From the NCBI RefSeq assembly GCF_028618595.1, contig NZ_JAQITE010000001.1:124001-188000 (forward strand): 64,000 bases of DNA. The letters run 5' to 3'. The notes beneath the pieces were generated by a model, which saw only the letters and a program-made list of their open reading frames with translations, was not told the origin of the DNA and ran no database searches. The stretch comes from Bartonella sp. AU18XJBT. GTDB lineage: Bacteria; Pseudomonadota; Alphaproteobacteria; Rhizobiales; Rhizobiaceae. Each line of letters starts with the position of its first letter. The first letter of the stretch is position 1. This document shows positions 14,340 through 50,048 of this stretch, in pieces. Position numbers and translations under genes: made by a program.

Positions 14340-16232
14340 ATGGCAAAAGTAATTGGTATTGATTTAGGGACAACAAACTCTTGTGTGGCTGTCATGGATG
14401 GCAAAAACGCAAAAGTTATCGAAAACTCAGAAGGAGCACGAACAACACCTTCCGTTGTTGCCTTTACTGATGGGGGGGAGCGGCTTGTTGGGCAGCCTGC
14501 TAAACGGCAGGCAGTGACCAATCCTGAAGGGACAGTTTTTGCAGTTAAACGTTTGATAGGGCGCCGTTTTGATGACCCTATGGTTGAAAAAGACAAAGCA
14601 CTTGTGCCTTATAAAATTGTTAAAGGTGACAATGGTGATGCATGGGTTGAAGAAGCGGGTAAGAAATATTCTCCATCGCAAATTTCAGCTATGATTTTGC
14701 AAAAGATGAAGGAAACAGCAGAATCTTATCTTGGTGAAAAAGTTGAACAAGCCGTTATTACGGTTCCTGCTTATTTTAATGATGCGCAACGTCAAGCGAC
14801 TAAAGATGCGGGTAAAATTGCTGGACTTGAAGTTTTACGTATTATTAATGAGCCAACTGCTGCTGCTTTAGCTTATGGTTTGGACAAAAAAGACGGAAAA
14901 ACAATAGCTGTTTACGATCTTGGTGGTGGTACATTCGATATTTCAGTACTTGAAATTGGAGATGGTGTTTTTGAAGTTAAATCAACCAATGGAGATACGT
15001 TTTTAGGGGGGGAAGACTTTGATATGCGTTTGGTTGGTTATTTTGCAGATGAATTCAAAAAAGAGCAAGGAATTGATCTGAAAAATGATAAACTCGCTTT
15101 ACAGCGCTTAAAAGAAGCGGCAGAAAAAGCAAAAATTGAGCTTTCTTCGTCGCAACAAACAGAAATCAATTTACCATTTATCACGGCAGATCAATCAGGT
15201 CCCAAGCACTTAACAATGAAATTGACTCGGGCAAAATTTGAATCTCTGGTTGACGATTTAGTGCAGCGTACCATTGAGCCTTGTAAAGCTGCGTTGAAAG
15301 ATGCTGGATTAAAAGCTGGTGAGATTGACGAAGTTGTTTTAGTGGGTGGTATGACACGTATGCCCAAGATTCAGCAAGTCGTGCAAAGCTTCTTTGGTAA
15401 GGATCCACACAAAGGCGTTAATCCTGATGAAGTTGTTGCAATGGGTGCTGCCATTCAAGGGGGTGTATTGCAAGGTGATGTCAAAGACGTGTTGCTTCTA
15501 GATGTAACACCTTTATCTTTGGGTATTGAGACCTTGGGTGGGGTTTTCACACGCCTCATTGAGCGCAATACCACTATCCCAACGAAAAAATCGCAAGTTT
15601 TTTCAACAGCTGATGATAATCAGAGTGCTGTAACTATTCGTGTTTTCCAAGGTGAACGGGAAATGGCGAGTGATAATAAGTTATTGGCTCAATTTGATCT
15701 TGTTGGTATTCCTCCAGCACCGCGTGGTATACCTCAAATTGAAGTTACTTTTGATATTGATGCGAATGGTATTGTTAATGTTTCGGCCAAGGACAAGGGA
15801 ACAGGCAAAGAACATCAAATTCGTATTCAGGCATCAGGTGGTTTAAGTGATGCTGATATTGAAAAAATGGTACAGGATGCGGAAGAGCATGCAGCTGAGG
15901 ATAAAAAACGCCGTGAAGGTGTTGAAGCCAGAAATCAAGCGGAAGCTCTTATTCATTCAACTGAGAAGTCACTCAATGAATATGGCGATAAAGTATCAGC
16001 TGAAGAAAAAGGACAGATTGAAACAGCAATATCTGATTTGAAATCTGCGCTTGAAGGCAGTGATACTGAAGAAGTAACAACAAAGATGCAAAAATTAGCT
16101 GAAGTTAGTATGAAGCTTGGACAGGCTATGTATGAAGCTTCACAAGCAGCGAGCGCTGACACTGAAACAGAAGCAAAGAATGATGATGTTGTTGATGCTG
16201 ATTTTGAAGAAGTTAATGATAAGAAGAAATAG
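14340..16232 (+). CDS. dnaK: Molecular chaperone DnaK (Hsp70)
   Basis: 630 residues from the ATG at 14340 (SD TGGAG 10 bp upstream; a longer frame from 14319 adds seven atypical residues). ATP-dependent chaperone. The N-terminal ATPase has [38 protein letters not shown] and [11 protein letters not shown]; the linker is [19 protein letters not shown]; then the substrate-binding domain and an acidic tail ending in [15 protein letters not shown]. All signatures are intact. dnaJ follows after a terminator-like hairpin, so dnaJ is probably partly expressed by read-through. A predicted RpoH promoter lies upstream; no CIRCE is present. Confidence 0.98.
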
Positions 16233-48349: not shown

Positions 48350-48736
48350 TTATGAAGATGGACGTGTTCCAATATAAATGGCAATCAGCAATAATATAAC
48401 CGCAACAAGTAAGGAAATCCATAAAGGAGGGTGTACCATTACAAAAAAGGATAAAAATCCTCCTGTCATACTAATCATTGCAAAAACTTTAATGAATGGA
48501 GATATTGCTTTTTTTTCTTCCCATCGCTTAATAGGAGGACCAAAAATACGATGATTGTTCAACCATTGATGAAAACGTGGAGAAGAACGCGTAAAACACC
48601 ATGAGGCAACTAACAAAAAAGGCACAGTTGGCATAATAGGTAATACTACACCGATAATACCTAATATAACCATTATCCACCCTGCTATATAATAGCAGAT
48701 ACGCAAAGGGTGCGATATCTTAAAATTTTTTTTCAT
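48350..48736 (-). CDS. YbaN/DUF454-family inner-membrane protein
   Basis: 128 residues with three to four hydrophobic segments (about 12-48 as a hairpin around IGVVLPIMPTVPFLLVASWCF, then 80-98 and 103-122). The DUF454 core PTVPFLLVASWCFTRSSPRFHQWLNNHRIFGPPIKRWEE is clear. Function unknown; the E. coli relative YbaN is an uncharacterised membrane protein. It is oriented like the metal importer operon upstream but separated by 400 bp and a terminator, so it is probably expressed separately. Confidence 0.87.
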   Translation of the reverse strand: MKKNFKISHPLRICYYIAGWIMVILGIIGVVLPIMPTVPFLLVASWCFTRSSPRFHQWLNNHRIFGPPIKRWEEKKAISPFIKVFAMISMTGGFLSFFVMVHPPLWISLLVAVILLLIAIYIGTRPSS

Positions 48737-48939
48737 TTTCTCGTACTATTTTCCTCTACGCAAAGTCCTATACAAAAACATTGTATCTGTTTTTTGTTTA
48801 CATGTCTGAGTGCACAATTACACTCTACCCCTTCATGCGTAAGCGTCTTTTCTGTTATAAGTTTCTTGAAAATACCGAATAGCTTACGCAATATGATAAT
48901 TATTGTAAATGATTTCAAGAAAAGAGAAGAGATTTTAGA
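48737..48939. other. Leader region of the ybaN-like gene
   Basis: About 200 bp between the gene start and the end of the putative small RNA. It should hold the ybaN-like promoter; none is clear by eye. An 86-codon plus-strand frame crossing this region (48710-48970) has no SD or motif. Confidence 0.5.
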
Positions 48940-48982
48940 AAAACAAAAAAATAAAAAGGCTGCAAAATAAATCAATGCAGCC
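48940..48982 (-). terminator. Strong intrinsic terminator
   Basis: On the minus strand: perfect 7-bp stem GGCTGCA/TGCAGCC (48982-48976 with 48964-48958), 11-nt loop, then TTTTTATTTTTTTG. It ends either the sitABCD transcript or the candidate sRNA just before it, or both. Confidence 0.88.
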
Positions 48983-49080
48983 TCTTAATTAAGAATGCAG
49001 TGTTGGGGGGGGAGAAAATATACTGCATTCACCTGCTAGACTTTAGGAGGAAAAATAACCTAGCACCCCAAACTCTAATT
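48940..49080 (-). ncRNA. Candidate trans-acting sRNA with anti-SD loops
   Basis: Minus strand, three hairpins in a row. H1: stem TGCTAG/CTAGCA (49065-49060 with 49039-49034), 20-nt loop containing TTTTTCCTCCT. H2: stem AATGCAGT/ACTGCATT (49029-49022 with 49001-48994), 20-nt loop containing TTTTCTCCCCCCCC. H3: the intrinsic terminator at 48958-48982. Two loops with C-rich anti-Shine-Dalgarno tracts plus a terminator is the design of the alphaproteobacterial CCUCCUCCC-loop sRNAs. Alternatively it is a structured 3' UTR of the sit operon. TTGGGG at its 5' end (49071-49066) could pair with the C-run of H2. The 5' end is estimated. Confidence 0.55.
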
Positions 49081-49142
49081 AAAATAAAGATGAGAAACAA
49101 TATATAAAAATGCATGGCTGATATGCATGAATTTTAACATTT

Positions 49143-50048
49143 TCAAGTTTCTTGAACGGTGCTTCGACGAAAGAAAATCATCATGAAAATAGCCATAAAA
49201 ATCAACGTCAAGATCAACACAATTGTAGAAGCAGAATCAGAGCCGATAAATAAGCTGAGATAAATCCCTAAAAAACCAGAAAAAGCTGCAACAAGTATCG
49301 CGATCATTAACATAAAAGAAAACCGCTTTGTAACAAGATAGGCAATTGCTCCTGGTGCTATCAGTAAAGAAATAACAAGCACAATACCTACAGCTTTCAA
49401 AGCCGCAACAATTGTAAGAGAAATCATCGTTAGAAGGGTATAGTGGAGTAGAGATATTGGTAACCCCATTGCACGTCCTTGAACTGTGTCAAAAATATAC
49501 AGCATAAAGTCGCGCCATTTTGCTGCTAAAATAAAAGTGACAATAGCAGAAATGATCGCCGTCTGCGTTATATCAAGCCAGTTAACACCCAAGAGATTAC
49601 CAAATAGAATATGATTCAAATCTAAGCTACTATAAATAGATGTGGCTAAAACAAGCCCCAAGCCAAACATCGAAGAAAAGACCACACCCATTACCGTGTC
49701 CTGTTTGATACGGCTATTGCTCCCTAAAAAACCCGTTAATAGTGCACATACCATTCCTGCAACAAAAGCACCGCAAGTAATCAAAGTCATTGTAATGTTC
49801 TCTGGACGCATATGCTGAAACCAAGCAAATGGCAAAGAAGTTAAAAATACGATTACCCATGGTGTTGTCATATAACCAACAACAACACCTGGAAAAACTG
49901 CATGAGAAATGGCATCGCCTAACAGCGCCCATCCTTTCAAAATAAGAAAACAGGAAAGCATCGCCATGGGAATAGAAAGAATCATGACAATAAGCATACC
50001 CTTAAGCATAAAAGAAAACTGAAACGGAAGCAGTAATTGATCAATCAT
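49143..50048 (-). CDS. sitD: Mn/Fe ABC transporter permease SitD
   Basis: 301 residues, eight to nine hydrophobic segments of the ABC-3 (metal) permease family. The motif region LLGDAISHAVFPGVVVGYM (about 42-60) and the later ISLLIAPGAIAYLVTKRF are typical. It pairs with SitC to form the membrane channel. Its ATG overlaps the sitC stop by 4 bp. It is the last gene of the operon; the 3' region holds three hairpins ending in a terminator. Confidence 0.93.
   Translation of the reverse strand: MIDQLLLPFQFSFMLKGMLIVMILSIPMAMLSCFLILKGWALLGDAISHAVFPGVVVGYMTTPWVIVFLTSLPFAWFQHMRPENITMTLITCGAFVAGMVCALLTGFLGSNSRIKQDTVMGVVFSSMFGLGLVLATSIYSSLDLNHILFGNLLGVNWLDITQTAIISAIVTFILAAKWRDFMLYIFDTVQGRAMGLPISLLHYTLLTMISLTIVAALKAVGIVLVISLLIAPGAIAYLVTKRFSFMLMIAILVAAFSGFLGIYLSLFIGSDSASTIVLILTLIFMAIFMMIFFRRSTVQET

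Follow-up and report, generated by a model that had tools for sequence, protein, structure and literature searches.

A probable gene for a small RNA (sRNA) of ~115 nt lies at 48953..49068 on the minus strand of the window (the whole 64,000-nt stretch of Bartonella sp. AU18XJBT DNA that was analysed), its start being a prediction to within a few nt, and sequence comparisons indicate that it is a derived αr14 (NfeR1-like) RNA. Our complete proposal is that of an independent, trans-acting, αr14-derived sRNA of ~115 nt with its own LsrB-activated promoter and a mode of action based on blocking Shine-Dalgarno (SD) sites, and we put its probability at roughly 0.78; transcription in the window's strain, binding of LsrB, the targets and their repression are what we infer. 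Upstream, the gene is flanked by a sitD-like permease gene (49143..50048, minus strand; Pfam ABC-3) and downstream by ybaN (48350..48736, minus strand; DUF454, Pfam DUF454). The sRNA segment has a single DNA match in the window's genome (G000).

The initial annotation placed three successive hairpins on this strand, and all three were found where it had described them. The lengths it gave for the first two stems, 8 and 6 bp, needed correction. Hairpin 1 (49034..49065, minus strand) has six Watson-Crick pairs, or more when G-U pairs are counted (UGCUAG at 49065-49060 with CUAGCA at 49039-49034), around a 20-nt loop holding UUUUUCCUCCUAA (49055-49043). Hairpin 2 (48993..49030, minus strand) has a 9-bp stem, GAAUGCAGU at 49030-49022 with ACUGCAUUC at 49001-48993, and a 20-nt loop holding UUUUCUCCCCCCCC; a tract of eight C residues in this loop (C8; 49005..49012, minus strand) varies in length among species. 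The third hairpin (48954..48986, minus strand) is an intrinsic terminator whose stem pairs approximately 48986-48976 with 48964-48954 and is followed by a T-run. Three hairpins of which the last is the terminator is the layout of αr14 RNAs, with hairpin 1 weak when the window is taken alone. The 141-nt strand folds at −39.2 kcal/mol compared to a mean of −26.9 for shuffled sequences (z = −3.7, 0/200 shuffles as low), and both hairpin 2 (z = −3.23) and the terminator hairpin (z = −4.96) stand out individually. Hairpin 1 itself stands on its conservation and not on folding energy in the window, since its fragment (49023-49070) does not surpass shuffles (z = 1.06) and its pairing is different in the best fold predicted for the 141-nt strand. 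Right after the terminator, a promoter-like TTGAAA-17-CATATT occurs at 48890-48918 (minus strand) and perhaps serves ybaN; the CTTGAAA just past the terminator recurs across many aligned loci.

DNA searches matched the sRNA segment in 57/71 Bartonella genomes with E values of 2.1e-14 or better, the best DNA match in the remaining 14 having an E value of 0.0024 to 0.14. Judging from their αr14 scores and LysR counts (see below), these 14 genomes are presumably bee-type. We use "bee-type" for loci L068-L071 and L073-L077, three of which belong to B. apihabitans, B. apis and B. choladocola and the others to one strain and to uncultured genomes; such Bartonella species live in bees. The named Bartonella loci were gathered by a SitD scan. 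A 47-row alignment (A1) left out L041, L070 and L076, and a 39-row alignment (A3) omitted the same three loci together with every bee-type row and the second of the B. bacilliformis copies.

Using the 47 sequences, RNAalifold recovered the three hairpins with compensatory changes in 7/25 predicted pairs. When we named the structure ourselves, both-side changes were found in 7/25 pairs compared to a mean of 1.7 in shuffles (0/500 as high), and 96.3% of the cells paired compared to 22-45% when the structure was slid along the alignment, a control that favours a structure derived from these very sequences. The number of further pair types was not unusual (23 versus 21.6 in shuffles, 82/500 as high). 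Both-side changes affected 4/8 pairs of hairpin 1, one inner pair of which fails in 38/45 distinct rows, 1/9 pairs of hairpin 2 (99.3% of cells paired) and 2/8 pairs of the terminator (100% of cells paired). The initial annotation was to be abandoned if no conserved stems existed in other Bartonella; the stems proved conserved and covarying over the 47 sequences. A small RNA gene is the more likely reading of these hairpins, a 3′ UTR in decay the less likely one.

A covariance-model search, which the initial annotation had proposed, gave a mixed answer. In the window, the αr14 model RF02344 aligned end to end on the correct strand, with 18.2 bits against a gathering cut-off of 58.8, a score that is not significant alone and that is level with the 18.4 bits of a chance family on the opposite strand. 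Under strict filters, RF02344 found no match in 29 of the 57 genomes that have a DNA match, including the whole of G000. Across the genus, however, its best match was the orthologous locus in 26 of these 57 genomes (E 1.7e-8 to 0.0025, coordinates compared by eye), and it scored above the cut-off in 14/71 genomes, exactly those without a DNA match. In two more of the 57 it matched elsewhere, with E values of 0.5 or worse. None of 14 control genomes passed the cut-off, and sub-threshold matches at E≤10 occurred in 4 of them. In the wider family, 290/297 genomes were matched at E≤0.01, 276 of them above the cut-off, compared to 0/14 controls.

Conversely, a reciprocal model built from the 39 non-bee rows recovered 9/9 bee-type loci with 59-73 bits. 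Among 30 αr14 loci of other genera, which were the best scorers and not a random draw, it missed 25 and matched six places in the other 5 (37.7 bits and E 2.8e-5 for the strongest, E 0.002-0.02 for the others), each of which is αr14 above the Rfam cut-off. Because RF02344 finds the orthologous locus in 26/57 genomes and the only other matches of the reciprocal model are αr14 RNAs, homology to the known αr14 RNAs by descent is the reading that we adopt. Kinship with the alphaproteobacterial CCUCCUCCC-loop RNAs, which the initial annotation had read from the anti-SD loops, is thus borne out as kinship by descent, through covariation and αr14 matches in both directions. According to PMC7143759, αr14 RNAs expose an unpaired anti-SD motif in all three loops; in the window, only loop 1 has the motif intact, loop 2 having a degenerate form and loop 3 none. 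As the RNA departs from the family in this mark and in its score below the Rfam cut-off, we file it as a derived variant rather than as a canonical member. The AbcR (αr15) model RF02345 gave no match at the sRNA locus, its matches in G000 lying on contigs C35 (26.2 bits) and C57 (18.4 bits). A second αr14 copy, below the cut-off (46.7-57.7 bits; for example G014:C1:2800501-2800610), was seen in 13 of the 14 Bartonella genomes that have a copy above it.

Loop 1 keeps UUCCUCCUAA in the window, and TTCCTCCTAA is present in 38/41 non-bee rows. Loop 2 of the window reads UUUUCU followed by the C-run (C8), with a degenerate UCUCC. Outside the window's clade, the bee-type rows and 7/8 non-bee rows have CUCCUCCC as loop 2, the eighth, B. 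bacilliformis, having UUCCUCCUAA; most rows of the clade itself (support 100/100) show UUCU followed by a C-run there. Runs of at least six C residues were found in 28/31 clade rows (lengths 6 to 11) compared to 0/12 rows outside, a distribution that parsimony explains with four changes, for example a single gain plus three losses. No C/G run in the window is longer than C8, and over 39 loci (230 kb) runs of at least six fall within the RNA of 27 loci compared to 22 elsewhere in total. The terminator loop holds no anti-SD motif in the window or in the non-bee rows; the bee-type rows have three CUCC-rich anti-SD loops, that of the terminator included. A bold extension, which we consider improbable, would be that the second seed loop of the clade has become a length-variable, slippage-prone C-run tuning or switching the target range, in one of two anti-SD RNAs under the sole LysR-type regulator that was kept. 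Elsewhere in the window, two G7 runs (14472-14478 and 15006-15012) within a single 630-aa frame (14340-16232) are possible slippage sites. The suggestion that a 5′ TTGGGG pairs with the C-run as a self-masking switch was dropped: inspection by eye found GGGG there in only 3/47 rows (the window, L032 and L079), and the predicted start coincides with the element or falls downstream of it. A scripted count returned the same three among 50 rows, but it misplaces rows that have no GCTAG, and the count by eye is the one relied on.

Between sitD and the RNA lies a conserved dyad, GCATATCAGCCATGC (49112..49126, minus strand), whose centre is ~50 nt upstream of the predicted start and which is a putative LsrB site. 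Its complement, GCAT-GGC-TG-ATA-T, fits the VtlR/LsrB consensus GCAT-N3-TG-N3-T (PMC7486931, PMC8844928), on the strand opposite to that used in other genera. A putative −35 element, TATTGTTTC (49094..49102, minus strand), follows 9 nt past the dyad, and a tentative −10 element, TTAGAG (49073..49078, minus strand), taken from the alignment, lies 17 nt past ATTGTT; a generic sigma-70 scan of the window did not report this TTAGAG. A 50-row alignment shows conservation of the dyad, of the TATTGT element 9 nt further on and of the −10-like element. The dyad core is present in 48/50 rows, the two without it being L053 and the first B. bacilliformis copy (L065), which fits BbsR14 (see below). The dyad pattern GCATANCAGNNATGC has one perfect match in the 2.39-Mb genome, at the sRNA promoter. 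One-mismatch matches occur at 15 places, only one of which precedes an AbcR-like RNA, starting 60 nt before it and showing the same 9-nt spacing to TATTGT as the sRNA promoter. Because two-mismatch matches are common in the genome (77 + 93 versus 33 + 50 for the control), it is position that carries the weight here. Of the 30 top-scoring αr14 loci from other genera, 10 have a dyad-like site (1-2 mismatches of 11) 69-70 nt before loop 1 and 20 have none at this distance; in the window the distance is 69 nt. At the level of sequence, a putative LsrB box upstream of the promoter, as in αr14/NfeR1, is recognizable.

The window's genome has a single hit for the LysR-type HTH domain (PF00126), as do 57/71 Bartonella genomes in all, the other 14 having 6-16 hits each. 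The protein is 64-67% identical to LysR proteins adjoining AbcR in two other genera and 75% identical to the bee-type form, pointing to this only LysR-type gene detected in the genome as the LsrB/VtlR orthologue. Two cysteines kept in Bartonella LsrB match, by a constant offset, C144 and C273 of A. tumefaciens LsrB. A third cysteine, present in LsrB of L143, is missing from Bartonella LsrB (L152:1444-2385), in which an additional cysteine directly precedes the HADC motif. Directly 3′ of lsrB/vtlR lies the diverged AbcR (αr15)-like RNA (L146; G000:C35:5037-5153), with 26.2 bits for RF02345 against a cut-off of 40; since 8/14 control genomes also gave sub-threshold RF02345 matches (E≤1), the AbcR-like call stands on position. 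The αr14 RNA NfeR1 of S. meliloti is activated by LsrB through a box at −72 to −57 (PMC10746234, PMC8844928) and AbcR1 through a box at −61 to −49 (PMC8844928), and LsrB/VtlR activates AbcR1 both in this species and in A. tumefaciens (PMC8844928, PMC7486931). LsrB probably activates transcription of the Bartonella sRNA via the dyad.

Whether the RNA is a gene of its own, as the initial annotation allowed, or belongs to the sit operon as its 3′ UTR and terminator, possibly with processing and lacking a promoter of its own, turns on what separates it from sitD. The RNA follows closely behind sitD in all 39 non-bee loci, no other terminator was detected between the two (weak evidence, as the scan also misses the RNA's own terminator) and the predicted −10 element is poor, all of which a 3′ UTR would explain. 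Yet the dyad and the −35- and −10-like elements sit between sitD and the RNA at near-constant spacing, the nine bee-type loci that were read keep the dyad and the RNA together ~0.9 kb past sitD, with a glycosyltransferase-25 gene in between in L077, and in B. bacilliformis Ver097 the sRNA has a tandem duplicate (L065:3744-3857) with one intact anti-SD loop and its own dyad core. Because of the promoter-like elements and the bee-type arrangement, we favour an independent gene and regard a sit 3′ UTR as unlikely. The dyad itself could be the terminator of the sit operon instead of a regulator site, as the TTTTT that follows it in non-bee rows might suggest, but its RNA fold is worth just −4.2 kcal/mol (45/200 shuffles equally good), the T-run is absent in bee-type rows and the AbcR-like RNA is preceded, at equal spacing, by a similar dyad, making this explanation very improbable. 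The initial annotation also considered a tie of the RNA to the metal operon. The sit-sRNA neighbourhood is conserved within Bartonella, and the tie did not extend beyond the genus: an Rfam scan of 16 sit loci of other genera gave no match above threshold, and a search of 32 such loci with the sRNA model (39 non-bee rows) turned up no hit at E≤1. We treat the link as local synteny, though a tie may exist within Bartonella.

An independent gene might still be a decaying αr14 remnant whose seeds erode and whose regulation is lost. Non-bee rows do miss the third anti-SD loop, one clade has the C-run of variable length and the window gives no target signal. Against decay stand the loop 1 motif and dyad core described above (kept in 38/41 and 48/50 rows, respectively), the maintenance of the stems by both-side changes and the published expression of BbsR14 (PMC7717549), so that we hold a remnant to be slightly less probable even than a sit 3′ UTR.

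For a functional, independent sRNA, we propose that transcription would start at its own promoter just past sitD and end at the intrinsic terminator. LsrB/VtlR, the genome's only detected LysR-type regulator, would bind the conserved dyad, probably as an activator. The UUCCUCCUAA of loop 1 and the degenerate UCUCC/C-run of loop 2 would pair with the SD regions of several mRNAs and, by analogy with NfeR1, which silences mRNAs via anti-SD loops (PMC10746234, PMC8844928), this pairing would block ribosome entry on the target mRNAs. When the loops were paired with 41 start regions taken from the window, the energies came close to those of shuffles and gave no target signal: the means were −4.49 versus −3.72 for loop 1, −4.27 versus −4.10 for the C8 loop 2, −4.46 versus −4.41 for the ancestral loop 2 and −5.34 versus −5.2 for the 16S end, with 7/41 start regions at or below −8 for each probe. 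The sit genes are not privileged partners of loop 1 (sitB −9.0, sitC −5.6, sitD −3.6, sitA −2.5). The start region of ybaN is the best of the 41 with loop 1 (−10.1); ybaN is not claimed as a target. In G000, AGGAGGAAA-N1-8-ATG occurs at 5 sites compared to 2 for the reversed control. Only one of the five opens a long frame, that of a TrbI/VirB10-like gene (L175; G000:C140:67111-67125), whose start AGGAGGAAAATGATG is complementary to loop 1 over 10 nt. This gene is not claimed as a target.

The locus very likely corresponds, on the evidence of loop motifs and position, to that of BbsR14 of B. bacilliformis, an sRNA described as having two TTCCTCCTAA stem-loops and reaching a higher level at pH 8 than at pH 6 (PMC7717549). 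A pair of TTCCTCCTAA loops was found once each in G007, G008 and G363, always at the sRNA locus (the coordinates in G008 and G363 are identical, so that the two are probably a single assembly), and not in G002. The same two-loop pair is thus seen at this locus in B. bacilliformis and not in the window, where loop 2 differs. Indiscriminate repression by BbsR14 is raised as speculation in PMC7717549, a 2020 paper whose available text mentions αr45 and not αr14, NfeR1 or LysR. In the open-access literature we found no printed link of BbsR14 or any other Bartonella RNA to αr14 or LsrB. Bartonellaceae are named in the available text of PMC3927594 among the families covered by a model group that includes SmelA075, and a catalogue entry for such a Bartonella RNA may exist.

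Compared with the systems already described, the sRNA resembles BbsR14 in that the TTCCTCCTAA loop pair occurs once per B. bacilliformis genome, at the sRNA locus, and differs in loop 2, which is UUCCUCCUAA in B. bacilliformis versus UUCU plus C8 in the window, and in the tandem second copy present there. BbsR14, puzzling for having nothing but anti-SD seeds, would thereby be placed in a family and be given both a likely activator and a promoter that is conserved genus-wide. Anti-SD-loop hairpins are likewise the hallmark of the CCUCCUCCC-loop RNAs RFMSmelA075/A099 and Rhodobacter RS0680a, in which hairpin number varies within the family (PMC3927594); the rhizobial families are described there as multicopy with fragmented synteny, whereas the Bartonella sRNA has one DNA match in its genome. 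AbcR/αr15 (RF02345) is also an anti-SD sRNA, with AbcR1 under LsrB/VtlR (PMC8844928, PMC7486931), but in the window's genome it corresponds to a separate, sub-threshold locus adjoining lsrB. The comparison predicts that the lone LysR-type regulator of non-bee Bartonella acts via two sRNAs, both of them blockers of ribosome sites; such wiring is known in rhizobia. With αr14 (RF02344; NfeR1/Smr14C2 of S. meliloti), the sRNA shares three hairpins ending in the terminator, an anti-SD loop, a length of ~115 nt, an LsrB-type box upstream and covariance models that link both RNAs in either direction. Unlike αr14, the window's RNA falls below the Rfam cut-off and has an intact anti-SD motif in loop 1 only, with a C-run in loop 2 and none in the terminator loop, and its box lies nearer the predicted start (centre at about −50) than that reported for NfeR1 (−72 to −57). 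Within this one RNA family there is thus a natural series of seed loss, from three anti-SD loops to two and then to one plus a C-run, which bears on the number of seeds such an RNA needs.
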